Of a DNA stretch of 37,419 bases, positions 3,040 to 28,418 are shown piece after piece. A program made the position numbers and the translations under genes. Under the pieces are notes generated by a model. The model was given only the letters and a program-made list of their open reading frames with translations, was not told the origin of the DNA and did no database searches. Source of the DNA: a bacterium (GTDB lineage Bacteria; BMS3Abin14); NCBI GenBank assembly GCA_020350725.1, contig CP070719.1, positions 2,006,970 through 2,044,388 on the forward strand, read 5' to 3'. Position 1 is the first letter of the stretch; every line of letters begins with the position of its first letter.

Positions 3040-4077
3040 ATGTCCGATCTTGTTACCGCAGACCCCCTCCGGGTCGAGAACTGGGATTCCCTGGTCTCGC
3101 AGCACCCGGGGGCGACCATATTCCACTCGGCCCGGTGGGCGAGGGTCCTGTCCGAGTCCTACGGATACCGGCCGAGGTATTTCGCCACCATCACGTCCGG
3201 CGGCCTCGAGACCCTGGTCCCGTGCATGGAGATCGCCAGTTTCCTGACCGGCAGGCGGGGCGTGAGCCTTCCCTTCACCGACTCCTGCCCTCCCCTTCTC
3301 TCCGGCCCCGAGACCTTCCCGGACCTGCTGCCCGCCATCACCGCGTTCGGCCGATCGGCGGGATGGAGGACCTTCGAGGCCCGGGACGTCGACCTCGGCC
3401 CGGCCGACGGCATCCCCGCCACGGCCTACCTCGACCACGACCTCGACCTGACGCCGGGACCCGACGGTCTCAAGGCCGGCCTGAGGAGCAGCACGGCGAG
3501 GAACATCAAGAAGGCGGCCAAATCCGGCGTGCAGATCCGCGAGGAGAACACCATGGCCGGCATGCGTGAATTCTGCCGGTTGAACAGCATGACCCGGAGA
3601 GAGCACGGCCTGCCCCCCCAGCCCTTCCGGTTCTTCACCCGGCTTTTCGACCACGTCATCGCCGGGGGATGGGGCAGGGTCCTGCTCGCGGTCAAGGACG
3701 GCCGCACGGCCGCCGGCGCCGTCTTCCTCCACTTCAACGGACGGTCGATCTACAAGTACGGCGCCTCCGACCGTGCCTTCCAGACCCTTCGCGCCAACAA
3801 CCTCGTCATGTGGGACGCCATCCGGAGGTACGCCGAGGAGGGTTTCGCGTCCTTTTCCTTCGGGCGGACCGAGCCGGACAACGAGGGCCTCCGGCAGTTC
3901 AAGGGAGGCTGGGGGGCGTCGGAACGGGAGATCCGATACGTGAAATACGCCATGAAGGAAGACGGCTTCGTCAAGGACAGCCTGAAGACCACCGGGTGGC
4001 ACAACCGGGTCTTCTCCCGCATGCCCATACCCGCCCTCAACGCCGTAGGGACCGTCCTCTACCGACACATGGGGTGA
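3040..4077 (+). CDS. FemAB-like / GNAT-fold acyl- or aminoacyltransferase
   Basis: A 345-residue protein of the FemAB-related type found in exopolysaccharide loci. It has an N-terminal half with IFHSARWARVL (27-37), the basic stretch RNIKKAAKSGV (154-164) that begins the second GNAT-like half, and the C-terminal FGRTEPDNEGLRQFKGGWG segment (274-292), typical of this family. FemAB proteins transfer aminoacyl groups from tRNA to an amino group; the substrate of the polysaccharide-associated branch is generally unknown. The ATG at 3040 has GAGG six bases upstream. It starts a tightly spaced run, with only 4 bases to the next start. No signal peptide or membrane segment is seen, so it should be cytoplasmic. 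The family is fairly sure; the donor and acceptor are not. Confidence 0.8.
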   Translation: MSDLVTADPLRVENWDSLVSQHPGATIFHSARWARVLSESYGYRPRYFATITSGGLETLVPCMEIASFLTGRRGVSLPFTDSCPPLLSGPETFPDLLPAITAFGRSAGWRTFEARDVDLGPADGIPATAYLDHDLDLTPGPDGLKAGLRSSTARNIKKAAKSGVQIREENTMAGMREFCRLNSMTRREHGLPPQPFRFFTRLFDHVIAGGWGRVLLAVKDGRTAAGAVFLHFNGRSIYKYGASDRAFQTLRANNLVMWDAIRRYAEEGFASFSFGRTEPDNEGLRQFKGGWGASEREIRYVKYAMKEDGFVKDSLKTTGWHNRVFSRMPIPALNAVGTVLYRHMG

Positions 4078-7194: not shown

Positions 7195-8645
7195 ACGTTT
7201 TCAACGCTCTTAACGAGGCCGCGGTGGGGCACCTCCTCTTCCCGGCGACCAGCAGCCTGATGAACAGGAGGCACATCCTTCAGAACTTCAGGAGGTTCCG
7301 GAGGACGGAGTGGTACCCGCCCGAACGCCTGATCGAGATCCAGGAGAGCAGCCTCAGGAAGCTCGTCCACTACGCCTACCACAGCATACCGTTCTACCGG
7401 GAGAGGTTCGACGCCATCGGCCTCAGGCCCGATGACATACGCCACCTGGCGGACGTCACCGCCATCCCTCCCCTGACCAGGCAGGAGGTCATCGACCATC
7501 ACCACCGGATGGTGGACAGCCGCTGCCTGCCCTACGCCAGGATGGCGGACAGCAGCTCACGGGGGACCGGGGCGCCCATAGCCTTTGCCCGCTTCCGCAG
7601 GGAACGGGTGGTCCGAAATACCTCGAGCGGCTCCACCGGCGCGCCCACCATCTTCTACGAGGACGGTGCCAGGACGGGCCTGAACTGGGCCCACGAACTG
7701 CGGTTCAGGAACTGGTTCGGCATCGGCCCGGGCGCCCGGGAGGCCCGCATGGCCAGGGTGTCCACCGATTACATGCCCAACGGCCGCGATCTCCTCTTTC
7801 GGAAATTCTTCTGGAACCAGCTGGCCCTGCCGGGTGTCAACCTGGGGGAGAAGGACTACGAGATCTGCCACAGAAGCCTGGCCGACTTCCGGCCCAGGGT
7901 GCTGTGGGGTTTCACATCCGCCCTCGCCGGCTTTGCCGGCTTCGTCAGGGACCGGGGGATCGACGTCTCTCCCTACAGGCCGGAGCTGGTCATCACCTGG
8001 GCCGCTCCGATGTACGAGCACGAAGAGGCCCTCCTCAGAGAGGTCTTCCAGTGCCACGTGACCAACATCTACGGGGCCCGGGAGGTCGGGCACATCGCCT
8101 GCCGCTGTCCCGAGGGGACGTTCCACATCAACCAGGAGAGCCTCCTCGTCGAACGGGAGGACCATCGGGCCCCGGCGTCCAACGGGTCGGGAGAGATCCT
8201 GGTCACCACCCTTGACCTGACCATCATGCCCTTTATCCGGTACCGGATGGGCGACATCGGCACCATCTCCAGCCGTCCATGCGCCTGCGGCAGGACGCTG
8301 CAGAACCTGGAGGATCTCCTGGGCCGCACCGGGGAGATCTTCACCACCAGGGACGGCCGCATGATCTCCCCCAACTTCTGGTGCCGGACGTTCATGAGTC
8401 CCGCCCTCAGCGAGAAGATCATCCGGTTCCAGGTGGTCTATCGGGCAAACGATGACATTCTCATCAAACTCGTCAGGGGCAACGGGTTCGAGAAGAGCAC
8501 GGAAGACGGGCTCTACCGTTTCCTCCGGGACAACTTCAGCGAGGACATCAGGATCACGTTCCAGTACGTGGACGAGATCAAGCCGCAGATATCGGGAAAA
8601 TACGAGATGGTCGTCAACGAGACGGCCCGGGAAACCGGAGTGTGA
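7191..8645 (+). CDS. CapK/PaaK-like adenylate-forming enzyme
   Basis: A 484-residue member of the phenylacetate-CoA ligase-like branch of the ANL superfamily, often named CapK in capsule loci. Visible motifs are the phosphate-binding loop NTSSGSTG (143-150), YGAREVG (294-300), and FIRYRMGDIG (348-357), whose Asp normally binds the ATP ribose. Two Cys pairs, C304/C306 and C364/C366 (the latter in CACGR), look like the structural metal site seen in related proteins. Family members activate a carboxylic acid as an acyl-adenylate and often pass it to CoA. The start ATG overlaps the GNAT stop as ATGA, which excludes the longer upstream frame. Together with the GNAT gene this suggests activation and transfer of an acyl group onto the polymer unit. 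The acid is unknown. Confidence 0.82.
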   Translation: MNVFNALNEAAVGHLLFPATSSLMNRRHILQNFRRFRRTEWYPPERLIEIQESSLRKLVHYAYHSIPFYRERFDAIGLRPDDIRHLADVTAIPPLTRQEVIDHHHRMVDSRCLPYARMADSSSRGTGAPIAFARFRRERVVRNTSSGSTGAPTIFYEDGARTGLNWAHELRFRNWFGIGPGAREARMARVSTDYMPNGRDLLFRKFFWNQLALPGVNLGEKDYEICHRSLADFRPRVLWGFTSALAGFAGFVRDRGIDVSPYRPELVITWAAPMYEHEEALLREVFQCHVTNIYGAREVGHIACRCPEGTFHINQESLLVEREDHRAPASNGSGEILVTTLDLTIMPFIRYRMGDIGTISSRPCACGRTLQNLEDLLGRTGEIFTTRDGRMISPNFWCRTFMSPALSEKIIRFQVVYRANDDILIKLVRGNGFEKSTEDGLYRFLRDNFSEDIRITFQYVDEIKPQISGKYEMVVNETARETGV

Positions 8646-8646
8646 C

Positions 8647-9672
8647 ATGAACGCGAGCGTTATCAGCCAGGCTCAGAGGGGTGACTGGGATCGGTACATG
8701 GAGGAGAATCCCCTGTCCATCGCATGGCAGGCTTACGAATGGAGCCACCTCGTCCGGCAGCACTTCGGTTACCGCTTTTTCCCCCTGGCCGCCTTCGAGG
8801 GCGATTCGATCAGGGGGATCCTGCCCCTGTATCTGGTCAAAAGGATGGGGGGAGGCATCCGGATGATGTCCGTCCCCCACGCCGTGGCCGGCGGCATCCT
8901 GGCCGACGGGGACGACGCAACCGCCTGCCTGCTCCGGAAGGCCATCGATCTGGCGACGGAATGCTCGGCGACCGAGGTGGCCCTGAAGCAGTACAAGGTG
9001 AAGGTGAAAGGCGAGCTCAAGGTGGACGAGAACTACTTCAACCGGGAACTGACGCTTTCGGCCGGCATTGACGATGTCTGGAAGCACCTCTCCGAGGCGA
9101 ACAGGGACCAGATCGGGAGCATGGACGGCTCCGATCTGGTCCTGGATCACCCGTCGGAGAGGGTGGACGAGTTCTACCGTCTCGTCCTCGCCCACCACCA
9201 TCGGCGCGGCATCCCGTGCGTCTCCAAGAGATGGATCGGGGACCTGATCAGATTCGGCATGTACAGTATCGCGTTCCTGCGCAAGGGCGACAGGGTGCAG
9301 GCGGGAACCATGGTCAAGACCTTCAAGGACACCGTCTCCTTTCCCTTCACCTGCCTGACGGGCGACGATCCCCGGTCCGCCCAGGCCGTCTATCGCCTGT
9401 ATTGGGAACTCATCAAGAAGTTCACCCTGGGAGGGTACCGGATATTCCACTCCGGGAGGATCCCCCAGACGGAAGAGACCGATCCGTATCGCCTCGGGTG
9501 GGGAGGCGACAAGTACCCCTACTACTATCAGTATTACCCGAAGACCGTTTCGCAGACCGAGTTCTCAAAGAAAAGGGGAGCCAAGCGGAAATACTTCCAG
9601 ACCGTCTGGAAGGTCACCCCCCGTCCCCTGGTCAAAGCGCTCGGCCCCCTCATCGTCAGGCAGTTTCCATAG
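8647..9672 (+). CDS. FemAB-like / GNAT-fold transferase
   Basis: A 341-residue protein resembling the FemAB-related protein at 3040: SIAWQAYEWSHLVRQHFGY (24-42) corresponds to its IFHSARWARVLSESYGY region, and a C-terminal SGRIPQTEETDPYRLGWGG segment matches the family's GR-x-x-x-x-x-GL-x-x-FK-x-GW pattern. The usual basic R-N-x-I-R-K-A motif in the middle is replaced by EANRDQIGSMDG, so the acceptor or nucleotide contacts may differ. The ATG at 8647 begins one base after the previous stop; the frame is open further upstream inside the ligase gene but that part is a shadow. No signal peptide is visible. It is probably a transferase acting on the same pathway intermediate; aminoacyl versus acyl transfer cannot be decided. 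Confidence 0.75.
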   Translation: MNASVISQAQRGDWDRYMEENPLSIAWQAYEWSHLVRQHFGYRFFPLAAFEGDSIRGILPLYLVKRMGGGIRMMSVPHAVAGGILADGDDATACLLRKAIDLATECSATEVALKQYKVKVKGELKVDENYFNRELTLSAGIDDVWKHLSEANRDQIGSMDGSDLVLDHPSERVDEFYRLVLAHHHRRGIPCVSKRWIGDLIRFGMYSIAFLRKGDRVQAGTMVKTFKDTVSFPFTCLTGDDPRSAQAVYRLYWELIKKFTLGGYRIFHSGRIPQTEETDPYRLGWGGDKYPYYYQYYPKTVSQTEFSKKRGAKRKYFQTVWKVTPRPLVKALGPLIVRQFP

Positions 9673-10895: not shown

Positions 10896-12572
10896 ATGAT
10901 AGGCATTGTCTCCCGACCGGAACAGAGGGCCACCGTTGAGGAGTTCTTTCAACTGTTCAAGGTCCCGTGGGAATTCCATCAGGAGGGCAGGCGCTACCGC
11001 GTGCTGATCGTCACGGAACCCTCCGCGGCGCCGCTGTCCGCGGACCTGAACCTGCTTTTTTCCCCGGGATACTGCCCCGTCGACGGAGAGCACGGGACAG
11101 AGGTCCTTGCGGCGGACAGGGGCAGCCATGATCTCCTGCGGACTCCCTATGGCCAGCTGCCCATTCACACCGATCTTTGCCTCTTCCGGGGCTGCCCGGA
11201 TCCGATCGTCGAGACGACCCGCAGGACGTCAGCCGGTTACCGGGTCAGATCCGGCGGTCGGACTACCATCCGCATCGGTTTTGATCTCTTCGCCGAGGTC
11301 GAGCACCTCCTGCGGGGGAAACAGGGCGTAGAACATGCACTCCACCCGACGGTGGAGATCCTCATAGCGACGGTCCGCCGGTGGATCCTCGAAGCGGGCA
11401 TCCCTCTTCTGGAAATACCGCCGGTGCCTGCCGGATTCAAATTCATCTCCTGCCTGACCCACGATGTCGATTTCATGGGCATAAGGGAACACATCTTCGA
11501 CCGCTCCCTCTTCGGCTTCATCTACCGCGCTCTCTTCTCCTATTCCCTGACCGACCTGGTATCGGGCAGAGCGTCGAAAAAGCTCCTCCGGAACCTTCGA
11601 GCCCTTCTTTCCCTGCCCGGCATCTATCTGGGATTGACGGCCGACATCTGGAATCAGCTCGACCGCTATCTGGAGATCGAGGGGGAGAGAAAATCGACCT
11701 TCTATTTCCTCCCCTACAAGGGCAGGCCCGGGGATCGGATGCCCGGCCACGCCGGAGAGAAAAGGGCACCGGGATATCGGTCCTCCCGCTACGACGTCCA
11801 GGACCTGAAGGACTCGATCAGACGTCTGGTGGAGAGGGGCCATGAGGTCAGCCTCCATGGCCTGGACGCCTGGTGCAGCTCCGAGAGGGGAAAGGACGAA
11901 TTCGATGTCATACGCCGGCTCGCCGGTGTGGACCGGCTGGGGGTGCGGATGCACTGGCTCTACTTCTCCGAGGAATCCCCGAGGGCCCTCGACGACGCCG
12001 GCTTCTTCTACGATTCCACGCTGGGGTACAACGAGACGGTCGGATTCCGATCGGGAACCACCCAGGTCTACCGGCTGCCCGACTGCTCCCGGGTCCTGGA
12101 ACTGCCTCTCCACGTCCAGGACACGGCGATGCTCTACCCGGCACGCATGAACCTGTCCGAATCCGACGCCTTTACCCTCTGCCAGGAACTCATCTCCAAA
12201 CTGGCCATCTTCGGTGGAGTCCTGACCGTCAATTGGCACCAGAGGAGCCTCGGGCCCGAGAGAAACTGGGATGAATTCTACCTCAGGCTGCTCGCCGCCC
12301 TCGACTCCGAGAACGTCTGGTTCGCCACCGGCGGTCAGGCCGTCAGATGGTTCATGAAAAGGCGATCGGTTTCCTTCACCAGGAACTCCCCGGAGGGGAC
12401 GTCCTACGGATTGGTCTCCCATTATGCCGACGGATCCGGCCTGCCGGATCTCACCGTCAGGCATTACACGCCGGACAGAGACCCGGGGCACCCTCAGGCC
12501 TCTTCCGACGCAGCCCCTCCCTTCACCGACACCAGCTGGTCCGGTTCAGGGGAGATAACCCTCACCCTATAG
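10896..12572 (+). CDS. Long polysaccharide deacetylase family protein
   Basis: A 558-residue protein. The first 180 residues are an extra N-terminal region without a motif I can name, seen in long capsule-locus deacetylases. The NodB-like part follows with CLTHDVDF (Asp190, Asp192), EVSLHGLDAW (His321), GVRMHWLYF (350-358), FFYDSTLGY (370-378) and VNWHQR (His448). The second His of the canonical H-x3-H pair is absent after His321 (HGLDAW); some homologues of this type also have HG-x-x-x-S here, so this may be normal for the subfamily or may mean altered metal binding. There is no signal peptide, which suggests cytoplasmic action. The ATG at 10896 has no clear ribosome-binding site. An 82-base spacer precedes it, in which I see no gene. 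Confidence 0.78.
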   Translation: MIGIVSRPEQRATVEEFFQLFKVPWEFHQEGRRYRVLIVTEPSAAPLSADLNLLFSPGYCPVDGEHGTEVLAADRGSHDLLRTPYGQLPIHTDLCLFRGCPDPIVETTRRTSAGYRVRSGGRTTIRIGFDLFAEVEHLLRGKQGVEHALHPTVEILIATVRRWILEAGIPLLEIPPVPAGFKFISCLTHDVDFMGIREHIFDRSLFGFIYRALFSYSLTDLVSGRASKKLLRNLRALLSLPGIYLGLTADIWNQLDRYLEIEGERKSTFYFLPYKGRPGDRMPGHAGEKRAPGYRSSRYDVQDLKDSIRRLVERGHEVSLHGLDAWCSSERGKDEFDVIRRLAGVDRLGVRMHWLYFSEESPRALDDAGFFYDSTLGYNETVGFRSGTTQVYRLPDCSRVLELPLHVQDTAMLYPARMNLSESDAFTLCQELISKLAIFGGVLTVNWHQRSLGPERNWDEFYLRLLAALDSENVWFATGGQAVRWFMKRRSVSFTRNSPEGTSYGLVSHYADGSGLPDLTVRHYTPDRDPGHPQASSDAAPPFTDTSWSGSGEITLTL

Positions 12573-13787: not shown

Positions 13788-14852
13788 ATGGGCAAGATGA
13801 ATTTCGCTCTGGTAGGTTGTGGAAATATCGCCAAGAAATACGTCCACGTCTTTCAGAACCACCTGGACAACGCAAGGCTCGTCGGCTTCTGTGATCCGTG
13901 GCTGGAGCGGGCCAAGAAATTCGCCGACGAGGTCGGTGCGCCGGCGTTCCTGGAGGCCGGTCAGATGATGGACAAGATCGGAGACACCGTCGATGCCCTC
14001 TGCATCCTCACTCCAAGCGGGGTTCACGTCAACAACGTCGACGAACTGGTTCAGTACGGCAAACCACTGATCATCGAAAAACCGATGGCCCTCCGGCTGG
14101 ATGAGGCGGACGAGATCATCTGGAAGTGTGACGCCCACAAGGTCAAGATCTTCGTCGTCCATCAGAACCGGTACAACCTGCCCATCATCAAGGCCAGGGA
14201 GGCATTCGACCAGGGCCGGTTCGGAAAGCTCGTCATGGGCACCGTCAGGCTCCGGTGGAAGAGGGACCAGGCATATTACGATTCGGCGGACTGGCGCGGG
14301 ACATGGGCCTACGACGGAGGCGTCTTCACCAACCAGGCCAGCCACCACATCGACATGCTGACCTGGTTCATGGGCGAGGTGGAGAGCGTCAAGGCCGTCG
14401 GGATGACCCGACTGGTGAACATCGAATGCGAGGACACCGGTGCGGCCATTTTCAAGTTCTCCAACGGATCCCTGGGGATCGTCGAGGCTACGACCGCCAC
14501 CAGGCCAAGGGACCTCGAGGGCTCCATCAGCATCCTCGGCGAAAAGGGGACGGTGGTTATCGGAGGTTTTTTCATGAATGAGCTCACCACCTGGGAGTTC
14601 GAGGACCGCACTCCCGAAGACGACGAGATATTGGAGAAATTCGGCAAAAACCCCGACGGGTGGGGTTACAACGTGGCCGAATATCTCAAGGACGTGATCA
14701 GGGCGATATCGGAGAACAGGAGGGGCCTCGTGGACGGCCTCGAAGGCAGAAAATCCCTGGAGCTGATCAGTGCGATCTACGAGTCCATTGAAACGGGCAA
14801 CGACATTGATCTCAGATTCAGGCCCAAGAGATGCAAACTGGGGGTCCTATGA
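13788..14852 (+). CDS. Gfo/Idh/MocA oxidoreductase, WbpB/WlbA-like
   Basis: A 354-residue NAD(P)-dependent oxidoreductase with the dinucleotide-binding motif VGCGNIA (9-15), the EKP motif with Lys98 (97-99) and [15 protein letters not shown] (177-191), whose His186 matches the catalytic histidine of the family. Length and motifs fit WbpB/WlbA, which oxidises the 3-hydroxyl of UDP-N-acetylglucosaminuronic acid and hands the ketone to the aminotransferase WbpE. The next two genes are an N-acetyltransferase and a DegT aminotransferase, the same trio as wbpB-wbpD-wbpE; this context is the main reason for the call. The stop overlaps the next start (ATGA at 14849). An ATG at 13797 is an alternative start. 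The exact sugar substrate is inferred. Confidence 0.8.
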
Positions 14853-15454
14853 ACGAGAACATCAGAACATACAGCGGAGTCACACTGGGCCCGGGCGTCG
14901 TCGTGGAGGATTTCTGCATCCTCGGCGTACCGCCGCGCGGGATGAAAGAGGGAGATCTGGAGACCGTCATCGGGGCCAATGCGACGATCAGGTCCCACAC
15001 GGTCATATACGCCGGCAACAGGATCGGCGACAACCTGCAGACGGGCAACAAGGTCAACATAAGGGAGCTGAACGAGATCGGCGACAACGTCAGCATAGGG
15101 ACCCTGTCCGTCGTGGAGCACCACGTGAAGATCGGCAACGGTGTGCGGATCCACACCCAGGTCTTCGTTCCCGAATACACGATCGTCGAGGACGGGGCCT
15201 GGCTGGGACCCAACGTGGTGATAACCAACGCCAAGTACCCCCTGTCACCGGGGGTAAAGGAATCGATCGTCGGCCCCACCATCCGGAAGGGCGCGATCAT
15301 CGGAGCGAATTCCACCCTGCTGCCCGGGATCATAATAGGGGAGAACGCCATCGTGGGCGCCGGCTCGGTTGTCACCCGGGACGTTCCCGATCGAGCCGTC
15401 GTGGCCGGAAATCCGGCAAAGTTCATTAAATACAAGGAAGAGTTACCTTACTGA
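14849..15454 (+). CDS. Hexapeptide-repeat N-acetyltransferase, WbpD-like
   Basis: A 201-residue left-handed beta-helix acyltransferase built from repeated [LIV]-G-x-x-x-x turns ([48 protein letters not shown]) and ending with [12 protein letters not shown], as in many sugar acetyltransferases. WITH its neighbours it resembles WbpD/WlbB, which acetylates the 3-amino group of a UDP-2-acetamido-3-amino-uronic acid using acetyl-CoA; WbpD is of similar length. The start is set by the ATGA overlap with the previous stop and by GGGGGT just upstream; a longer frame from 14831 is less likely. It is likely a trimer in the cytoplasm. A different acyl donor or acceptor remains possible because hexapeptide enzymes are hard to tell apart. 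Confidence 0.8.
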
Positions 15455-15464
15455 GGAGGGAGAA

Positions 15465-16570
15465 ATGAACATACCTTTCGTTGATCTGAAAAGTCAGTAT
15501 GCGAGCATAAAGAATGAGATCGATACGGCCATATCGGAGGTGATCTCGAACACCGCCTTTGTCGGCGGCCCCTTCCTCAAGGCCTTCGAGGAAGAGTTCG
15601 CCGCCTTCTGCAGGACGAAATACTGCGTCGGCGTGGGCAACGGGACGGACTCCCTGTTCATCTCCCTCAAGGCCCTGGGAATCGGCGAGGGTGATGAGGT
15701 CATAACGGCGGCAAACAGTTTTGTGGCGACCTCGGAGGCCATCACCATGGCCGGGGCGAGGGTGAAGTTCGTCGACATCCATCCCGAGACCTACAACATC
15801 GACCCGGCCAGGATCGAGGAGAAGATCACGCCGAAGACGAAGGCCATCATTCCGGTCCACCTCTACGGCCAGCCGGCCGACATGGACCCCATCCTCGAGA
15901 TCGCGGCGAAACACGACCTCAGGATCGTGGAGGATGCCGCTCAGGCCCACGGCGCAGACTACAAGGGCAGGAGGATCGGGTCCATCGGAGACGCGGGGTC
16001 TTTCTCATTCTACCCGGGTAAGAACCTGGGCGCATACGGCGACGGCGGCGCCATCGTCACCGACAACCAGGAGCTGGCCGAAAAGGCGCACATGTTCGCC
16101 AATCACGGCAGGGCGGACAAATTCGGCCACAAGTTCGAGGGCGTCAACAGCCGGCTCGACGGGCTTCAGGCCGCCGTTCTCTCGGCCAAACTCAGGCACC
16201 TCGACGAGTGGACGGAGAGCCGCCGGAGGAACGCCTATCTCTACAACGAATACCTGGCCGATACGGACCTCGTCACCCCCCGGGAGATCGACGACGTCCG
16301 GGCCGTCTACCACCTCTACGTGGTGCGCGTCCCGAAGGACCGGCGGTCCGACCTGCAGGACTTCCTGCGATCGAAGGCGTCGCAACGGGCATCCACTACC
16401 CCATCGCCCTGCCGAACCTGAAGGCCTACGAGTATCTGAACCTCGATCCGGAGGATTTTCCCGAGGCGACCAGAGCGTCCCACGAGATCGTCTCACTGCC
16501 CATGTTCCCCGAGCTCACGGAGGATCAGATCCGCTTCACGGTCGACAGGGTCAAGGAGTTCTTCGCCTGA
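15465..16570 (+). pseudogene. DegT/DnrJ/EryC1 aminotransferase, WbpE-like, with one-base frameshift
   Basis: A PLP-dependent sugar aminotransferase of type I fold. From ATG 15465 (after the strong site GGAGGGAG) the first frame gives MNIPFVDLKSQY, NGTDSL (59-64), EDAAQAHG with Asp157, and SFYPGKNLGAYGDGG, whose Lys186 should bind PLP. At about 16376 the sequence reads aaggcgtc where aagggcgtc is expected. The first frame then runs into unrelated residues and stops at 16421, while the +2-shifted frame continues as GVATGIHYPIALPNLKAYEYL to the stop at 16570. Restoring one G gives about 368 residues, the normal length. Either a true mutation or a sequencing or assembly error. If intact, it would aminate the 3-keto sugar made by the WbpB-like enzyme using glutamate. 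Confidence 0.85.
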
Positions 16571-16641: not shown

Positions 16642-16653
16642 TCAACCGGTTGA
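16642..16653. promoter_or_regulatory. Perfect 12-base palindrome upstream of the toroid protein gene
   Basis: The sequence tcaaccggttga is its own reverse complement, and its core accggttg also occurs 25 bases upstream (16620-16627). Both lie in the 121-base spacer between the aminotransferase and the next gene. This could be an operator for a dimeric regulator, but no -10/-35 or sigma-54 site could be placed beside it and a chance palindrome cannot be excluded. Confidence 0.25.
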
Positions 16654-16691
16654 TCCCATCATGGAGCTTTTCCGGCGGAGTGAACCCAAAA

Positions 16692-17943: not shown

Positions 17944-19827
17944 ATGTGCGGCATCTGCGGACAGTACAATTACCTGAGCCAGAGACCGGCCGACCGGCAG
18001 ACCATCGAGCGGATGACGGAAAACGTCGTCCACAGGGGTCCCGACGACGAGGGATATCACTTCTCCGGTTCTCTGGGGCTGGGTTTCCGGAGGCTCTCCA
18101 TCATCGACCTTTCCGGCGGACACCAGCCCATGTCCGATGAAAACCGGAAGGTCTGGGTCGTCTTCAACGGCGAGATCTACAATTTCCCGGAACTGAAAAA
18201 GGAACTGCAGGACCTTGGCTACAGGTTCCGGACGCGCTCGGACACGGAGGTGATCGTTCACGGATATCGCCATTGGGGAACCGGCGTCTTCCAGCGGCTC
18301 AACGGCATGTTCGGCGTCGCCATCTGGGATGAGGACCGAAGGCGTCTCGTCCTCGGCCGCGACCCCATGGGGATCAAACTCGTCTACTATCGCCTGGACG
18401 ACGAGGGGATCACTTTCGGTTCCGAGATACGGTCCATCCTGGCCGCCAACGGGGCCGCCCCTGAGGTGGACCCCGTCGCCGTCAACCTGTTCCTCCGCTA
18501 CCGGTACACACCCTCGCCCCTGACCATCTACAGGGGGATCATGAAGCTGGCGCCGGGGACCATGCTGGTGGTGGAGAACGGCAGCGAGAGGGTGGAGCGC
18601 TGGTACAGGTACCGGCCCACCCTGTTCGACCCCCAGCCCAGCGACGACGAAGCGGCCCACGAGCTGCTGGAGATCTACAAGCGCGCCGTCAAGAGACATC
18701 TCCTGAGCGATGTCCCCGTGGGCCTGCTGCTCAGCGGAGGGATAGACTCCGGCATGCTCCTGGCCCTGATGAACCTCTACGGCGAGAACTGGCACACCTT
18801 CACCATCGGTTATGGGACCGCCATCTACAGGGACGATGAACTGAAGGATGCGGTCAGGACCGCCCAGCACTTCAAGACCACTCACTCGGCGGTCACCATC
18901 GACCAGAAAACCTTCGAGGAGAACCTTCCCAACATCGTCTCCTTCCTGGAAGAACCGATCGCCGCGTCCTCCATCGTGCCCATGTATTTCGTGTGCAAGC
19001 GGGCCAGGGAAGACGTCAAGGTCGCCCTGGTGGGGCAGGGTCCCGACGAGCTCTTTGGCGGCTATCCGAGGCACATCGGGGTCCGTTACGGCGCCCACTG
19101 GAGGAGGGCCCCGTCCTGGATGACCGACACCCTGGGAACCGCGGTGAGGAGACTGCCCCGGAACGAGACTCTCAAAAGGGGTGTCGAGTCACTGCGCACC
19201 GAGGGGAGGATGGAGAGATACCGAAACGTGTTCTCCCTCGTGCCGGGATCGCGGGTGGATTCCCTTTTTCATGACGGGCTGCTGCCCGAGGACACCGATG
19301 GCGAGATCCTGCGCTGCTGGGACGGTCTGGAGGAACTGATGGACGGCACCGACGAACTGGGGGGGTTCCAGATCCTCGAGGTGCGGTCCTCCCTCCCGGA
19401 TGAACTGCTCATGTACGCGGACAAGCTGTCCATGGCCCACAGTCTCGAGGTCCGTGTCCCCTATCTGGACAGGGAGATCGTGGAGTTCACCGAGCGCCTG
19501 TCCCAGGCCATGAAGGTGCGCTACGGAAGGAGAAAATGGCTGCACCGGAAAGTGTGCCGGGATTTCCTGCCGGGTGAGTTTCTGCGGCGAAAGAAGCGCG
19601 GTTTCGCCGTGAATGTCGTCGATGACTGGTTCCGGCGTTCCCTCGACGGCAAGATGGGGCAGTACCTGTCCGACGGCAAGTCCATTATGTACCAGTACCT
19701 CCAGCAGGACGTGGTGAGCAATATCCTGCAGGACCACCTCTCGGGCAGGCACGACTACCACAAGCTCCTCTTCAGTCTCGTGGTCTTCGAGGAATGGCTT
19801 CGCAACAGCGTCGGCGGCACCGGCTGA
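17944..19827 (+). CDS. asnB: Asparagine synthetase B-like glutamine amidotransferase
   Basis: A 627-residue two-domain enzyme of standard length. The N-terminal glutaminase domain has the nucleophile Cys2 (MCGICG), RGPDDEG (31-37), FNGEIYN (74-80) and SDTEVI (99-104). The C-terminal synthetase domain has the PP-loop SGGIDSG (264-270), GQGPDELFGGYPRH and YADKLSMAHSLEVRVPYLD. It uses glutamine ammonia and ATP to turn a carboxylate into an amide. In capsule and O-antigen loci such homologues (for example WbpS) are associated with amidation of uronic acids, which fits the WbpBDE-like cassette just upstream; free asparagine synthesis is the alternative. All catalytic residues expected are visible, so it should be active. 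Conversion of a uronic acid to a uronamide is my inference. Confidence 0.9.
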   Translation: MCGICGQYNYLSQRPADRQTIERMTENVVHRGPDDEGYHFSGSLGLGFRRLSIIDLSGGHQPMSDENRKVWVVFNGEIYNFPELKKELQDLGYRFRTRSDTEVIVHGYRHWGTGVFQRLNGMFGVAIWDEDRRRLVLGRDPMGIKLVYYRLDDEGITFGSEIRSILAANGAAPEVDPVAVNLFLRYRYTPSPLTIYRGIMKLAPGTMLVVENGSERVERWYRYRPTLFDPQPSDDEAAHELLEIYKRAVKRHLLSDVPVGLLLSGGIDSGMLLALMNLYGENWHTFTIGYGTAIYRDDELKDAVRTAQHFKTTHSAVTIDQKTFEENLPNIVSFLEEPIAASSIVPMYFVCKRAREDVKVALVGQGPDELFGGYPRHIGVRYGAHWRRAPSWMTDTLGTAVRRLPRNETLKRGVESLRTEGRMERYRNVFSLVPGSRVDSLFHDGLLPEDTDGEILRCWDGLEELMDGTDELGGFQILEVRSSLPDELLMYADKLSMAHSLEVRVPYLDREIVEFTERLSQAMKVRYGRRKWLHRKVCRDFLPGEFLRRKKRGFAVNVVDDWFRRSLDGKMGQYLSDGKSIMYQYLQQDVVSNILQDHLSGRHDYHKLLFSLVVFEEWLRNSVGGTG

Positions 19828-19865
19828 CGCCTCAGGATGCCCACCGGGAACAGACGAGGATTGCC

Positions 19866-20741
19866 ATGCGATACGTTCTTATCACCACCGCTCGAAACGA
19901 GGAACAGTACCTCGAGGAGACCATCCACTCCGTTATCCGCCAGACCGTCCTCCCCTTGAGATGGGTGATCGTCAGCGACGGCTCCACGGACAGGACGGAG
20001 GAGATCGTGGCGAAATATCTGCCTGATCATCCCTGGATGGACCTGCTGGCGCTTCCCGGGAGGGCCGAAAGGTCCTTCTCGGGTAAGGCGGACGCCTTCA
20101 ACCGCGGCCTGGGCAGGATCGACTCCCTGGACTATGAATACATCGGCAACCTCGACGCCGACGTTTCCTTCGGGGAGGACTATTTCGCCTACCTCCTCGG
20201 AGAGCTTGACCGGGACCCGGAACTCGGCGTCGCCGGAACCGATTACGTGGAGGGCGATTTCCACTCCTTCCGGGACAGCTACATCAGTGAAAACCACGTC
20301 AACGGGCAGATCCAGATGTTCCGCAGGGCCTGCTTCGACCAGATCGGCGGTTATCTGGCGATCCCCTACGGAGGGATCGATTGGGTGGCAGTGACGACGG
20401 CCCGCATGAAAGGATGGAAGACCCGCTCCTTTTCCGACCGCGTCTTCAACCACCTGCGCAGGATGGGAACTGAGGGGACCAACGTCCTCGGCGCCAGATT
20501 TCACTATGGGAAAAAGGACTATTTCCTCGGCGGCCATCCCCTGTGGCAGATATTCCGCAGCACGTTCCAGATGACCAAGAAACCCTACGTTCTGGGCGGG
20601 ACCCTTCTCCTCGCCGGCTACCTCTGGGCGTCGGCTACCATGGAAAAGCAGGTCCCCGAGGACCTCGAGAGGTTTCACAGGGGCGAACAGATGAAGCGGC
20701 TCCGGGGGATCTTCACCGGCACGGGGAACCGGAATGGATGA
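19866..20741 (+). CDS. Glycosyltransferase family 2
   Basis: A 291-residue GT-A fold enzyme. It opens with VLITTARNEEQYLEETIHS, has VSDGSTDRT (37-45) for nucleotide contact and NLDADVSF (95-102), whose Asp pair (97, 99) is the metal-binding DXD. Family 2 enzymes are inverting transferases that use nucleotide sugars. Near the C-terminus PYVLGGTLLLAGYLWA is hydrophobic and could anchor the protein to the membrane. The ATG at 19866 is chosen because the family motif begins right there; the frame is open 24 codons further up, overlapping asnB in another frame, without similarity. It should add one residue to the lipid-linked repeat unit. Confidence 0.85.
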   Translation: MRYVLITTARNEEQYLEETIHSVIRQTVLPLRWVIVSDGSTDRTEEIVAKYLPDHPWMDLLALPGRAERSFSGKADAFNRGLGRIDSLDYEYIGNLDADVSFGEDYFAYLLGELDRDPELGVAGTDYVEGDFHSFRDSYISENHVNGQIQMFRRACFDQIGGYLAIPYGGIDWVAVTTARMKGWKTRSFSDRVFNHLRRMGTEGTNVLGARFHYGKKDYFLGGHPLWQIFRSTFQMTKKPYVLGGTLLLAGYLWASATMEKQVPEDLERFHRGEQMKRLRGIFTGTGNRNG

Positions 20742-20819: not shown

Positions 20820-21782
20820 ATGCTGATGCAGGTCGGCAGAAAAGAGATAAACATCAGGGGCCATTATGTCCAGGTGGACTCGGTACGGTTGGACGCCAGG
20901 GAGATCGTGGTATCGGGAAAATTCCTTAAAACAGCGCGACTTACAGAGGAAATGTACGACGACGTCGACAACCCCGAGGTGCTGATCGACGGGCTGCGGC
21001 GATCCGGCCTCGACGTGGATATCTTCACCTTTCTGGAGAGATTCCCGGGGCCCGAGCCGAAATATGATTACCACCTCGAGTGGGAGGCCTATACGAGGAT
21101 GAACATCAAGACTTTCGATCACTGGTGGAACCATCAGATCCGGAAGGCCACCCGAAACAGGATCAGAAAGTCCCAAAAGGTCGGTGTTGTCGTTCGATCG
21201 GCCGCATTCAACGATGACCTTGTGGAGGCCATATCGAAAATATATAACGAGACATCGGTCCGACAGGGCAAGGAGTTCTGGCACTACGGAAAGGACCTTC
21301 AAGCCATCAGAAGAGATCTCTCCCGTGATCTTGACAGATCGGAGTTCTTCGGCGCCTACCACAACAACCAGTTGATAGGGTTCATGAAACTGCTGTACAC
21401 CGACGACATGGCCGATCCGGTCCTTTTCCTGTCCATGATGGAGCATTACGACAAATCACCCAACAACGCCCTGATGGCCAAGGCCGTGGAGGTCTGCGCG
21501 GAGAGGAACATCCACTATCTCGACTATGGTCGATGGAGAAGCGACAATCATGCCGCGTTTCTCATGGCCAACGGTTTTGAAAAGATGATCCTGCCCAGAT
21601 ATTACTGCCCCTTGTCCCGTAAAGGGACCATAGCCTTGAAATCACATCTCCATAAGGGGCTTCTCGGAGTGATCCCGCCCAGAACAGCGGATCGGCTGAA
21701 GGGCCTGCGGAGCAGGCTGATCTCCATGAAAAAGGTCACCGGCCCCCCGAGGAGCGCTGCCGGTGGGGATTGGGATAACTGA
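20820..21782 (+). CDS. FemAB-like / GNAT-fold transferase, paralogue A
   Basis: A 320-residue protein highly similar to the next gene. Shared landmarks are YVQVDSVRL (16-24), LDVDIFTFLERFPG (64-77), FDHWWNHQ (99-106), the basic segment RNRIRKSQKVGV (112-123) that recalls the FemAB R-N-x-I-R-K-A-x-K-x-G motif, FFGAYHNNQLIGFMKLLYTD, MMEHYDKSPNNALMAKAVEVC and NHAAFLMANGF. The last two resemble the acetyl-CoA-binding and closing motifs of GNAT folds. The N-terminal 80 residues are specific to this pair. The start ATG follows AGGGGA by a usual distance. Its TGA overlaps an ATG of the next frame. The region is AT-richer than the rest of the window. The substrate is unknown; acyl or aminoacyl transfer is likely. 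Confidence 0.7.
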   Translation: MLMQVGRKEINIRGHYVQVDSVRLDAREIVVSGKFLKTARLTEEMYDDVDNPEVLIDGLRRSGLDVDIFTFLERFPGPEPKYDYHLEWEAYTRMNIKTFDHWWNHQIRKATRNRIRKSQKVGVVVRSAAFNDDLVEAISKIYNETSVRQGKEFWHYGKDLQAIRRDLSRDLDRSEFFGAYHNNQLIGFMKLLYTDDMADPVLFLSMMEHYDKSPNNALMAKAVEVCAERNIHYLDYGRWRSDNHAAFLMANGFEKMILPRYYCPLSRKGTIALKSHLHKGLLGVIPPRTADRLKGLRSRLISMKKVTGPPRSAAGGDWDN

Positions 21783-21808
21783 TGGACGGAGCAGGGGAGG
21801 AGAAAACC

Positions 21809-22726
21809 ATGCAGGTCTGCAAGGTCGAATACAATATCGCCGGGGACTACGTCCAGGTGGACTCGGTCCGGCTGGGCAATAATGTCGTGGTGGTCACGGG
21901 CAAGCACCTGAAGACGGCCAGGATCATCGAGGAAATGCACGAGGACGTCGAGAATCCCGAGTTCGTGATCAACGGGCTGAAGGAGTCCGATCTTGACCTG
22001 GATATCTTCACCTTCCTGGAGCGGTTTCCGGGATCCGAGCCCAGGTATGACTATCACACCGAATGGGAAGCCTTCACCAGGATGCACATCACGAATTTCG
22101 ATCACTGGTGGCAAAACCAGACCACGAAAAAGGGAAGGAACAGGCTGAGAAAGTCAGAAAAGGCGGGCGTTGTCGTCGAACGGGTCGAGTACAATGACGA
22201 GCTGCTGGACGGGATCGTGAACATATACAACGAAACACCCATCAGGCAGGGTCGGTATTTCTGGCATTACAACAAGGATATCGCCATCGTAAAAAAGGAC
22301 CTGTCGCGGGATCTGGCCAGATCGGATTTTTTCGGCGCTTATCACGACGGCCGCCTGATCGGGTTCATGAAGCTGCTCTACGCGGACAGGATGGCCTTTC
22401 CTGCCCTCTGTGTCTCCATGATCGAGCATTATGACAAGTGTCCCAACAACGCGCTCATCGCCAAGGCCGTGGAAGTCTGCGCGGAGAGGGGTATCCCCTA
22501 TTTCTATTACGGACACTGGAGAAGGGACAGGCACGCCCAGTTCCTTGAGGCGAACGGGTTCGGAAAGGTGCTCCTCCCCAGATACTACGTCGGTCTAACC
22601 GGTAAGGGTAAGATCGCCCTGAAACTGAATCTCCACAGGGGACCTCTCGGACTCATCCCGGACAGCATCCAGGAGGGCTTAAAGGTCCTTCGGGAACGGG
22701 TGTTGTCCGCCAAACACGGGGATTGA
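21809..22726 (+). CDS. FemAB-like / GNAT-fold transferase, paralogue B
   Basis: A 305-residue tandem paralogue of the gene at 20820. It shares YVQVDSVRL, LDLDIFTFLERFPGSEP, FDHWWQNQ, RNRLRKSEKAGVVV, FFGAYHDGRLIGFMKLLY, EHYDKCPNNALIAKAVEVC and HAQFLEANGFGKVLLPRYY. The start at 21809 is chosen because it follows GGGGAGGAG by a good distance and aligns with the paralogue's beginning; an ATG at 21782 that overlaps the previous stop (TGATG) would add nine residues. The pair looks like a gene duplication followed by divergence, for example CS versus HS-type charge changes around the basic segment, perhaps to serve two positions or two donors on the same polymer. No signal peptide is seen. Confidence 0.7.
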   Translation: MQVCKVEYNIAGDYVQVDSVRLGNNVVVVTGKHLKTARIIEEMHEDVENPEFVINGLKESDLDLDIFTFLERFPGSEPRYDYHTEWEAFTRMHITNFDHWWQNQTTKKGRNRLRKSEKAGVVVERVEYNDELLDGIVNIYNETPIRQGRYFWHYNKDIAIVKKDLSRDLARSDFFGAYHDGRLIGFMKLLYADRMAFPALCVSMIEHYDKCPNNALIAKAVEVCAERGIPYFYYGHWRRDRHAQFLEANGFGKVLLPRYYVGLTGKGKIALKLNLHRGPLGLIPDSIQEGLKVLRERVLSAKHGD

Positions 22727-23551: not shown

Positions 23552-25381
23552 ATGCCGGGTATTGCCGGAATCATCAGCAGGCGACCACGGGACAGGAATG
23601 AAAATGACCTGCATTCGATGACCGGATGCATGATGCACGAACCGTCCTACCGCTCGGGGTCGTACATCAACGAGGACCTCGGTCTGTACGCGGGCTGGGT
23701 GTGCCACGGGGACTCCTTCGCGGACTGCATGCCCGTCATGAACGCCGGAAAGGACATCGTGCTGCTGTTCTACGGGGAGAACTTCGTCGACGGCTCCGTC
23801 ATAGAGAGGCTGAAAAAGCAGGGCCATGAGGCGGACCGGTCCAATGCGGGTTATCTCGTCCACCTTTACGAGGAGGATCCGGTCAATTTTTTTCAGCTCC
23901 TGAACGGATATTTCAGCGGGGTGGTCGTCGACCTTCGGGAAGGGAAGATCGTCCTCTTCAATGACCGCTACCGGATGGGCCGGGTCTACTACCACCAGGG
24001 AGAGGAGGATTTCATCTTCTCCTCCGAAGCGAAATCACTTCTCAAGGTCCGGCCCGAACTGCGGGAGATCGACCATGAGGGTCTTGGCCAGTTCTTCGCC
24101 TGGGACTGCGTCCTGGAGGAGAAGACCCTCTTCAAGGATATCTTTCTCCTGCCGGGGGGTTCCCGGTGGACCTTCGCCGGCGGAAGCGTTCCGGAGAAAA
24201 GGACCTATTTCCACCCAAATGAATGGGAGAACAGACCCGTCCTCGGAAAGGATGCTTTCTACGACAGACTGACGGAGACATTCGCGAATATCCTGCCCCG
24301 CTACTTCGACGACCTGGACAGGATCGCGATGTCGGTGAGCTCCGGGCTGGATACCCGGGCCATCCTGGCCTGCATAGACGTCGAACCCGGACAGCTTCCC
24401 TGCCACACCTTCAGCGGGATCCACCGCGAGACCCTCGACGCGATCATCGCCCGCAAGATCGCCAAGGCCTGGCATCAGCCCCACGAGGTTCTCCGGCTCG
24501 GCAGGGACTTCCTGTCCCGTTTCGATGAATTCTCCGCAAAGACCGTTTACGTTACGGACGGGTGTCTGAACGTAAACGGATCCTATGACATCTACTTCAA
24601 TGAGCTCCTGAGAAACATCCGTCCGGTCAGGATGACGGGGAAATTCGGCAGCGAGATCGTGAGAAGTCACAGCATGTTGAGGAAGCCCTTTGCGTTTCCC
24701 GAGGAGGTCTTCCATCCGGATTTTAAAGGGCATTTCGACGCGGCTGTGGAAAAGCTCGATGAGAATCGAAAATGCCACAGACTTACATTCGCCGCGTTCA
24801 AGGAAATACCCTGGAACGAATACGGCCGTCTTTCCATGGAGATGTCCAAATTGACGGTCCGGACACCCTACATGGACAACGACCTCGTGGAGCTCATGTA
24901 CCAGGCTCCGCCGGGTGAGAGGGACACCCTCGAGATCAGTCTCCGGCTGGTGGATCACGGCAATCCCGCCCTGCGCCGTATCATGACGGACAGGGGCACA
25001 GCGGGACAAAACGGTTACTATTTCTCCAACCTCTCCAGGCTGTACCATTACTATCTGGTGAAGTCGGAATACATGTACCTCTGGCAGATACCGAACTGGC
25101 TCGCCAGGATCGACAGCATACTGTCCCCTCTGCATCCTGAAAAGCTGTTCACCGGACGTCATCAGCTGGGCAGTTACAGGCTGTGGTACCGCGATGAACT
25201 GTCCGACCACATCCGCAGTGTCCTGCTGGACAGCCGGACCAAGAGCAGGCCGTATCTGAACCGGTCCTTTCTGGAAAAGATGATCGACACCCACACGAGA
25301 GGACATGCCAATTATACGGGGGAGATCAATAAAATATTATCCGCCGAACTGATTCACAGACAGCTCGTGGAAGACATTTAG
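23552..25381 (+). CDS. Asparagine synthetase-like protein lacking the N-terminal cysteine
   Basis: A 609-residue homologue of AsnB with both domains, but the start reads MPGIAGI where active enzymes read MCGIAGI, so the glutaminase nucleophile Cys2 is replaced by Pro. The FNGEIYN loop is also lost (LLFYGENFVD, 71-80). The synthetase domain keeps a PP-loop variant, SVSSGLDT (261-268), in place of SGG-x-DS, and the late segment SKLTVRTPYMDNDLVELMY. ATP use is therefore plausible, but hydrolysis of glutamine is not. In beta-lactam synthetase the same loss goes with intramolecular amide formation, so this protein may adenylate a carboxylate and join it to an amine other than ammonia. No upstream start could restore the Cys. 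The function is inferred only. Confidence 0.8.
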   Translation: MPGIAGIISRRPRDRNENDLHSMTGCMMHEPSYRSGSYINEDLGLYAGWVCHGDSFADCMPVMNAGKDIVLLFYGENFVDGSVIERLKKQGHEADRSNAGYLVHLYEEDPVNFFQLLNGYFSGVVVDLREGKIVLFNDRYRMGRVYYHQGEEDFIFSSEAKSLLKVRPELREIDHEGLGQFFAWDCVLEEKTLFKDIFLLPGGSRWTFAGGSVPEKRTYFHPNEWENRPVLGKDAFYDRLTETFANILPRYFDDLDRIAMSVSSGLDTRAILACIDVEPGQLPCHTFSGIHRETLDAIIARKIAKAWHQPHEVLRLGRDFLSRFDEFSAKTVYVTDGCLNVNGSYDIYFNELLRNIRPVRMTGKFGSEIVRSHSMLRKPFAFPEEVFHPDFKGHFDAAVEKLDENRKCHRLTFAAFKEIPWNEYGRLSMEMSKLTVRTPYMDNDLVELMYQAPPGERDTLEISLRLVDHGNPALRRIMTDRGTAGQNGYYFSNLSRLYHYYLVKSEYMYLWQIPNWLARIDSILSPLHPEKLFTGRHQLGSYRLWYRDELSDHIRSVLLDSRTKSRPYLNRSFLEKMIDTHTRGHANYTGEINKILSAELIHRQLVEDI

Positions 25382-26816: not shown

Positions 26817-28355
26817 ATGTCCCCCAAAAATCAAAAGTATTTCAATACCGACCATCTCAAGCCGGAACTGAAGAGGCACGCCGTCAGGGGTGCCGGTGCC
26901 ACGATCTTCTCCAATGTCATGAGCTACGCCATCCAGATGATCGGCACCATCGTCCTGGCCAGGCTCCTCAGTCCCGACGATTTCGGCCTGATCACCATGA
27001 TCACCGCCTTCAGCATCCTCTTCCAGAATTTCGGCATGAGGGGTTTCACGGAGGCCACCGTCCAGGCCGAGGAGATCGATCACAGGAAGATCAGCACGCT
27101 CTTCTGGATCCATCTGGCCATCAGCCTCACCCTCGCCCTGGCCTTTATCGCCTGTGCCCCCCTCATCGCCAGGTTCTACAAGGAACCCAGGCTCGTCCTG
27201 CTGGCCGTCGCCATCTCAACGAACTTCCTGCTGTTTGCCCTGGCCACCCAGCACCTGGCCCTCCTGACGCGCAATATGCAGTTTTACCGCATCGCCGGGA
27301 TCGAGATCGTGGCCAACATCCTCAGCGTGACCGCAGGCATATCTCTGGCTCTGAAAGGGGCGAGCTACTGGTCTCTTGTGGCCAGGCGGGTGTCCATTCC
27401 CCTGGGGATGGCCATAGGGGCCTGGATCCTGTGCCGATGGCTGCCCGGCCTGCCGGCCGTCCGCACGGGCGTGGGTAAAATGGTCAGGTTCGGCATGAAC
27501 ACCTACGGCAACTTCACCCTGAATTATCTGTCCAGGAATCTGGACAAGGTCCTCATCGGATGGCGCCACGGAGCTCAGTCGCTGGGGTTCTACGACAGGG
27601 CCTATTACCTGTTCGTCATGCCCGTCAACCAACTGTCCTATCCCCTGACAAACGTCGCTGTTTCAGCGCTGAGCAGGCTGCGTGACGACCCCGCGAAATT
27701 CAGGGATTATTACCTGAAATCCCTCTCCATGCTCGCCCTGATCGGGATGCCCCTCAGTGCCGGGCTGACCCTGGCAGGCAGGGACTTTATCCTCCTGCTC
27801 CTCGGCCCCCAGTGGGGCAAGGCGGGGGAGATCTTCACCCTGTTCGGCCCCGCCATCGGCATCATCCTGATATACGGCACGCACGGATGGCTTCACCTCT
27901 CCCTGGGACGGGCCGACCGCTGGTTTCGGTGGGGGATCTTCGAGCTCGTGATCACAGCCCTGTTTTTCATGATGGGGTTACCCTTCGGTGCGTCCGGGGT
28001 CGCCGTGGCCTACGTATTGTCGATTTTTCTCCTCACCGGTCCGGGCCTGTGGTATGGCGGCAAACCCATCGGGCTTTCCGTCCTCTCCATGTTCGGGGCC
28101 ATCTGGAAGTTCACCCTGTCGGCGCTTGCCGCGGGGCTGATCTCCTGGTATCTTCTGTACTTCGCCGGTACGATCCCCCAGCTGTTCGCGGGGCTCAACG
28201 TCTTTGTGAGGATCGTCGTAGCGTCCATCGTCTGTTCGATCCTGTATTTCGTCCTCCTGGTCATCTCCCACGGCGGTTACCAGCCGATAAGGCAGTTTCT
28301 CTCCCTCGCCCAGGAGATGGTCCCCGGCCTTTCCAGGATAAAAAGGACCGGTTGA
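26817..28355 (+). CDS. Polysaccharide flippase, Wzx/WzxC-like (MOP superfamily)
   Basis: A 512-residue protein with 12 or more hydrophobic segments. It opens with the family signature RGAGATIFSNVMSYAIQMIGTIVLARLLSPDDFGLITMI in the region 24-62, where ARLLSP-x-x-FG is the hallmark of oligosaccharide flippases. Further on, LDKVLIGWRHGAQSLGFYDRAY matches the WzxC type. Flippases move the lipid-linked repeat unit from the cytoplasmic to the periplasmic face. It follows the Wzy-like gene, giving a minimal Wzx/Wzy pair. The ATG at 26817 follows GGGAGAGAAG. No charged or catalytic oddities were noticed. Confidence 0.9.
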   Translation: MSPKNQKYFNTDHLKPELKRHAVRGAGATIFSNVMSYAIQMIGTIVLARLLSPDDFGLITMITAFSILFQNFGMRGFTEATVQAEEIDHRKISTLFWIHLAISLTLALAFIACAPLIARFYKEPRLVLLAVAISTNFLLFALATQHLALLTRNMQFYRIAGIEIVANILSVTAGISLALKGASYWSLVARRVSIPLGMAIGAWILCRWLPGLPAVRTGVGKMVRFGMNTYGNFTLNYLSRNLDKVLIGWRHGAQSLGFYDRAYYLFVMPVNQLSYPLTNVAVSALSRLRDDPAKFRDYYLKSLSMLALIGMPLSAGLTLAGRDFILLLLGPQWGKAGEIFTLFGPAIGIILIYGTHGWLHLSLGRADRWFRWGIFELVITALFFMMGLPFGASGVAVAYVLSIFLLTGPGLWYGGKPIGLSVLSMFGAIWKFTLSALAAGLISWYLLYFAGTIPQLFAGLNVFVRIVVASIVCSILYFVLLVISHGGYQPIRQFLSLAQEMVPGLSRIKRTG

Positions 28356-28418
28356 CCGTCCGGCCCCCGGCCGCGTCCTCACAGTAGGACTTTACCCTTG
28401 GATGGAAGGAAATCGAGG

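Follow-up and report, generated by a model that had tools for sequence, protein, structure and literature searches.

We describe an AsnB-like protein, P0001, that lacks the glutaminase nucleophile of its family and is encoded in a bacterial polysaccharide locus. From its residues, we predict that P0001 is unable to take nitrogen from glutamine. Our preferred reading, which we hold tentatively and regard as almost evenly balanced between right and wrong, is that P0001 is a glutamine-independent, probably ATP-dependent, amide-forming enzyme that acts on the polysaccharide repeat unit or on a precursor of it and shares its pathway with a FemAB-like GNAT. This reading is based on a conserved full-length protein, loss of both Cys2 and the glutamine pocket, retention of the AsnB fold, placement in a single branch of the family, the polysaccharide context and co-occurrence with the GNAT. 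The window, meaning the whole 37,419-nucleotide stretch of DNA that was analysed, is a Wzx/Wzy polysaccharide locus.

The P0001 gene and its lost glutaminase site

The features that define P0001, and the intact AsnB with which it was aligned, are as follows.

23552..25381, + strand: Cys2-less AsnB-like protein P0001 (ORF, 609 aa)
23552..23572, + strand: N-terminus MPGIAGI, with Pro2 at the position of the AsnB glutaminase Cys (Pro2 in six of six subfamily members)
23768..23788, + strand: FYGENFV replacing FNGEIYN, an altered glutamine-pocket loop (by alignment)
17944..19827, + strand: intact AsnB/WbpS-like amidotransferase (TIGR03108, 491 bits, cut-off 816.9)

The P0001 gene opens with the codons ATG CCG GGT ATT GCC GGA ATC, so the Cys2 nucleophile of AsnB is absent and a proline stands in its place. 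An earlier sequence-only reading had reported the MPGIAGI start, the full length and the PP-loop SSGLDT, all of which we recovered from the ORF on the + strand, and had placed an intact AsnB 3.7 kb away, which is indeed found there with its canonical motifs (MCGICGQ, FNGEIYN and SGGIDS). That reading also held that the FNGEIYN loop was lost; we find instead that it is altered to FYGENFV (residues 73-79, with G75 and E76 kept) and not deleted. Relative to the window's own AsnB, the rest of the glutamine pocket is lost as well, with RLSI replaced by WVCH and SDTE by SNAG. Pfam recognizes the glutamine amidotransferase domain GATase_7 in P0001 (3e-11) and gives a weak match to Asn_synthase. The host genome (2.78 Mb, one contig) contains just two matches to P0001, namely P0001 itself and the intact AsnB. 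The latter scores 445 bits against TIGR01536, above the cut-off of 267, and is probably the enzyme that makes a uronamide in this locus.

Orthologues of P0001 were recovered by an alignment scan of genome contigs, which yielded five homologues that are 36-45% identical to it, from Verrucomicrobia (L110), Nitrospira (L111), Terriglobia (L112) and Acidobacteria (L113 and L114). A scan of genome contigs with the single P0001 sequence, unlike the alignment scan, gave no match. Four of the homologues are full length, and the one in L114 is cut by a contig end. The sequence-only reading had proposed checking the conservation of Pro2, and had named Cys2-bearing orthologues or an error in codon 2 as evidence that would count against it; all five homologues start with MPG[IL], and neither was found. 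No orthologue was found among 12 genomes of the host's phylum, and all matches to P0001 in plasmid records were below 60% identity (~22-28% among the matches listed). A DNA pattern for MPGI.G starts was also tried as a measure of frequency and rejected; it seemed hugely enriched, but most of the matches inspected proved to be response-regulator receiver domains or SecD.

The Arg branch of the AsnB family

We use the term Arg branch, defined here, for AsnB-like proteins that carry an Arg directly after the PP-loop and lack Cys2; P0001 has both traits. Among 84 aligned sequences, 38 combined the Arg with a non-Cys residue at position 2, and 5 more had the Arg with an alignment gap at position 2. 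The remainder comprised 34 canonical AsnBs with Cys2 and without the Arg, 6 sequences with neither, and 1 without the Arg whose position 2 was unaligned. No sequence among the 84 had both Cys2 and the PP-loop Arg. The Arg was thus present in 43 of 43 branch members, as its defining trait, and Cys2 was seen in none of them (5 being gapped at that position). Branch members that do not belong to the P0001 subfamily have Pro (22 sequences), Ser (5) or Ala (4) at position 2. A quick maximum-likelihood tree of 73 rows, from which both trait columns had been removed, put the Arg branch (37 rows) on one side of a single tree branch (SH-aLRT 100), and the trait requires one change on it.

Members of the Arg branch occur in Nitrospirota, Acidobacteria, Verrucomicrobia, Planctomycetes, Chloroflexi, Cyanobacteria and methane-oxidising archaea, including Methanoperedens; by sequence inspection, about 8 of 386 sampled genomes contain one. 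We found no NCBIfam model dedicated to the branch, as 30 of 30 members scanned matched the same general AsnB models, and P0001 itself falls far under every NCBIfam cut-off. The gene adjacent to other branch members is often a Wzx flippase (L101, L104, L115, L116, L122, L125, L128 and L141). Two Zixibacteria members lie outside polysaccharide loci (L117:1317-3152 and L118:2612-4447), the L117 gene directly before apparent ribosomal protein genes.

The Arg branch is best read as a widespread and unnamed group that would have lost glutamine hydrolysis permanently. Much of the sequence-only reading stands on this evidence, namely the loss of the nucleophile and pocket, the AsnB fold, the polysaccharide locus and the conserved Pro2. 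Its word "new" overstates the Cys loss, which is typical of a branch that spans many phyla and numbers at least 43 sequences. The ATP-dependent amide ligase that it proposed is a hypothesis, and it did not name the FemAB-like GNAT described below as the constant partner. Annotation as a glutamine-hydrolysing asparagine synthase is common for AsnB homologues encoded in polysaccharide loci; the two-letter rule (Cys2 absent, Arg following the PP-loop), which had no exception in the 84 sequences, marks a large branch without the glutaminase nucleophile.

The polysaccharide locus and its FemAB-like GNAT

Other genes of the window are listed below.

3040..4077, + strand: FemAB/XrtA-type GNAT (TIGR03019, 2.1e-35, below cut-off)
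8644..9672, + strand: second FemAB/XrtA-type GNAT (TIGR03019, 1.3e-41, below cut-off)
10896..12572, + strand: deacetylase with weak VimE similarity (NF053580, 3.4e-15, below cut-off)
13788..14852, + strand: Gfo/Idh/MocA sugar dehydrogenase
14831..15454, + strand: hexapeptide-repeat acyltransferase
15369..16570, + strand: DegT-family sugar aminotransferase in two overlapping frames (frameshifted)
19794..20741, + strand: GT2 glycosyltransferase (each of the five orthologue loci has a homologue)
20820..21782, + strand: FemAB-like GNAT that constantly accompanies the P0001 subfamily (PF13480)
21782..22726, + strand: tandem GNAT copy, 63% identical to the first and followed directly by the methyltransferase and P0001
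22733..23494, + strand: SAM methyltransferase, directly upstream of P0001
25410..26768, + strand: Wzy-type O-antigen ligase/polymerase, directly downstream of P0001 (PF04932; homologues in L110, L111 and L113)
26817..28355, + strand: Wzx-type flippase (NCBIfam flippase matches, below cut-off)

The loci of the orthologues share this setting in part. Wzy or Wzx is found in L110, L111 and L113, while L112 and L114 are short contigs, of which L112 has a flippase by Pfam. The GT2 glycosyltransferase, although common to all five loci, also has lower-score matches in 7 other genomes. A YdjC-type deacetylase is present in three of the five loci. The VimE-like deacetylase was considered as a constant companion and rejected, as the five orthologue genomes gave one weak match, which contains a stop.

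The constant partner of the P0001 subfamily is the FemAB-like GNAT at 20820..21782. Homologues of this GNAT are present in all five orthologue genomes (in the L111 genome ~10.6 kb downstream on the same contig) and in none of 385 other genomes at E 1e-15, a co-occurrence that is descriptive, since the background was unmatched by lineage and loci may move as units. Most Arg-branch loci have no such GNAT beside the branch gene. The constant pairing of P0001-type proteins with this GNAT in surface-polysaccharide clusters suggests a glutamine-free amide-forming step in polymer building, and this tight link points to a specific pathway, open to testing, by which surface polysaccharides would gain amide decorations.

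Several further features of these loci were observed. The protein encoded at 167-2917 consists of repeated DPAGSLDDPYTFLWDF... units that resemble PKD domains. Positions 16650-17939 encode a 429-aa protein with a weak pectate-lyase match, the L111 homologue of which (533 bits) is encoded immediately ahead of the P0001 homologue. Two similar secreted-looking proteins are encoded at 28398-30089 and 33689-35053; other proteins resembling beta-helix or pectate-lyase proteins occur close to the P0001 homologues in L110 and L113. The frame break in the DegT gene, near 16390, is either a true frameshift or an assembly error.

Synthetase site, proposed function and known systems

Three elements of the P0001 synthetase site differ from those of canonical AsnBs.

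24335..24361, + strand: PP-loop variant VSSGLDTRA (residues 262-270) with the branch-defining Arg269, never found in Cys2 AsnBs
24635..24655, + strand: TGKFGSE, rewritten, at the canonical GEGxDE synthetase motif (by alignment)
24986..25000, + strand: TDRGT, where the canonical KxGF lysine aligns with Asp (a less sure alignment)

Residue equivalences to E. coli AsnB and to the Tyr-Glu dyad of beta-lactam synthetase were assigned from general knowledge and by alignment with the window's own AsnB. The PP-loop of P0001, SSGLDT against the canonical SGGxDS, keeps G265 and D267 before the Arg; G265, D267 and R269 are invariant across aligned branch members. Within the subfamily the loop drifts between SSGLDT (P0001), TGGLDG (L110) and TGGLDS. 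At the GEGxDE site the orthologues have TGNYGSE, TGKFGSE or TGNYGGE, giving a subfamily motif TG[NK][FY]G[SG]E in which the synthetase Glu of AsnB aligns with Lys or Asn. At the KxGF site the subfamily has [TS]D[RF]xG, in which Lys aligns with Asp, an assignment less certain than that at the GEGxDE site. The replaced residues are ones that we take to be E348 and K449 in E. coli AsnB numbering.

An AlphaFold model of P0001 (pLDDT 91.8, pTM 0.91) retains the two-domain AsnB fold. Its best PDB match was TsnB9 (E 2e-22, TM 0.69), and AsnB, beta-lactam synthetase and carbapenam synthetase (CarA) were also among the best, all four being AsnB-family proteins; Foldseek gave E 4.6e-18 for the model against the AsnB structure 1ct9. 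The modelled fold is consistent with an N-type ATP pyrophosphatase minus its glutaminase, and we infer that P0001 uses ATP.

In the mechanism we propose, P0001 would be a cytoplasmic enzyme whose substrate is either a sugar precursor or the lipid-linked repeat unit of a Wzx/Wzy-type polysaccharide. Using ATP, it would convert a carboxylate, that of a uronic acid or of an amino acid, to an acyl-AMP, and would join the activated acid to an amine other than glutamine-derived ammonia. The FemAB-like GNAT would serve the same pathway by acylating an amino group freed by the locus deacetylase. The amide product, the identities of the acid and the amine, and the order of these steps are what we infer. 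A more specific form of this proposal, which we consider rather doubtful, is that P0001 and the GNAT form a dedicated two-enzyme module that makes a non-ammonia amide (such as an aminoacyl- or amine-linked uronic acid) on repeat units, through a rebuilt ATP site in which the PP-loop Arg replaces the lost synthetase Lys.

Evidence against an amide-forming enzyme is a non-canonical PP-loop (SSGLDT, and TGGLDG in L110), non-conservation of the AsnB Glu and Lys, and the weak Asn_synthase match. With both active sites altered in this way, and with strict pairing to one GNAT, P0001 could be a pseudoenzyme that retains the AsnB fold with neither activity and acts non-catalytically, as a scaffold or as a regulatory partner of, for instance, that GNAT. 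We consider this unlikely, as the invariance of Gly265, Asp267 and Arg269 over aligned branch members and the conserved motifs that the subfamily has of its own are as expected of a working site.

It is quite improbable, in our view, that P0001 is an amidotransferase using ammonia, either free or from a partner, to make a primary uronamide. AsnB-family enzymes can replace glutamine by ammonia, as PesC does (PMC13060819), and the locus also encodes an intact AsnB, which has a 60% identical counterpart in the L111 locus. This intact WbpS-like AsnB is, however, already available for the uronamide reaction, and the acid-binding motif of P0001 is unlike that of AsnB. We also considered and rejected the intact AsnB as a feeder of P0001: two of the five orthologue genomes (L110 and L113, MAGs of unstated completeness) show no canonical AsnB, their sole strong AsnB-type match being the P0001 homologue, so an ammonia-feeding partner is not needed.

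FemAB-type enzymes transfer aminoacyl groups, which would allow P0001 to form an acyl- or aminoacyl-adenylate as the donor for the paired GNAT, with the GNAT making the amide bond. The presence of the GNAT in all five orthologue genomes and in none of the 385 others favours this arrangement; it is nonetheless a poor prospect, as FemAB enzymes normally use aminoacyl-tRNA and most Arg-branch loci have no such GNAT beside the gene. A transfer of this kind, of an aminoacyl group on a sugar, has been proposed for VimA (PMC7468200). Finally, the DegT frameshift means that small errors or decay are possible in this window, but the chance that Pro2 comes from a sequencing error, or from decay of an AsnB paralogue, is close to nil: all five homologues, from several phyla, carry Pro2, which excludes an error at codon 2, and the entire pocket is altered, beyond one codon.

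Returning to the preferred reading of P0001 as a glutamine-independent amide-forming enzyme, we compared it with known systems. E. coli AsnB (PDB 1ct9) resembles P0001 in its two-domain fold, similar length and partly kept PP-loop; P0001 differs, in alignment to the window's own AsnB, by its missing Cys2, lost pocket, replaced synthetase Glu and Lys, and Arg after the PP-loop. The best NCBIfam match of P0001 is the XrtA/PEP-CTERM amidotransferase family TIGR03108 (WbpS-like), which also occurs in polysaccharide loci; P0001 reaches 106.9 bits where the cut-off is 816.9, members of the WbpS type depend on glutamine, and the WbpS-like member here is the intact AsnB of the locus, not P0001. The hydroxyamidotransferase TsnB9 (7ylz), the best PDB match by both sequence and structure, retains Cys2 (MCGVAGW), unlike P0001.

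An aminoacyl-sugar uronamide is the proposed product of the Wbp/Vim pathway in Porphyromonas gingivalis, where a deacetylase, the GNAT VimA and WbpS would form it (PMC7468200). The locus resembles this pathway in that a deacetylase, a GNAT and a WbpS-type AsnB are brought together for one surface glycan, and no Cys2-less AsnB-like protein is named among the enzymes in the part of that account considered here. In the literature searched, which included few subscription journals, we found no description of the Arg branch, its two-residue signature, the altered synthetase site or the GNAT pairing.

Loss of Cys2 in AsnB relatives is already known from beta-lactam synthetase, and both beta-lactam and carbapenam synthetases form amides without the glutaminase Cys. 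These enzymes (1jgt and 1q15) share the AsnB fold, are structural matches of P0001 and likewise lack an N-terminal Cys; they close small-molecule rings in antibiotic clusters and are ~11-14% identical to P0001 in structural alignment. The position of the catalytic Lys is Asp in P0001 as judged against the window's AsnB. Lasso peptide cyclases also form amides on the AsnB fold family without glutamine; P0001 matches them weakly (NF033535, 55.5 bits, cut-off 525) and differs in lying in a polysaccharide locus where no peptide cluster was seen. Loss of Cys2 is common among AsnB relatives, and the GNAT pairing and the altered synthetase site are the newer points of P0001.
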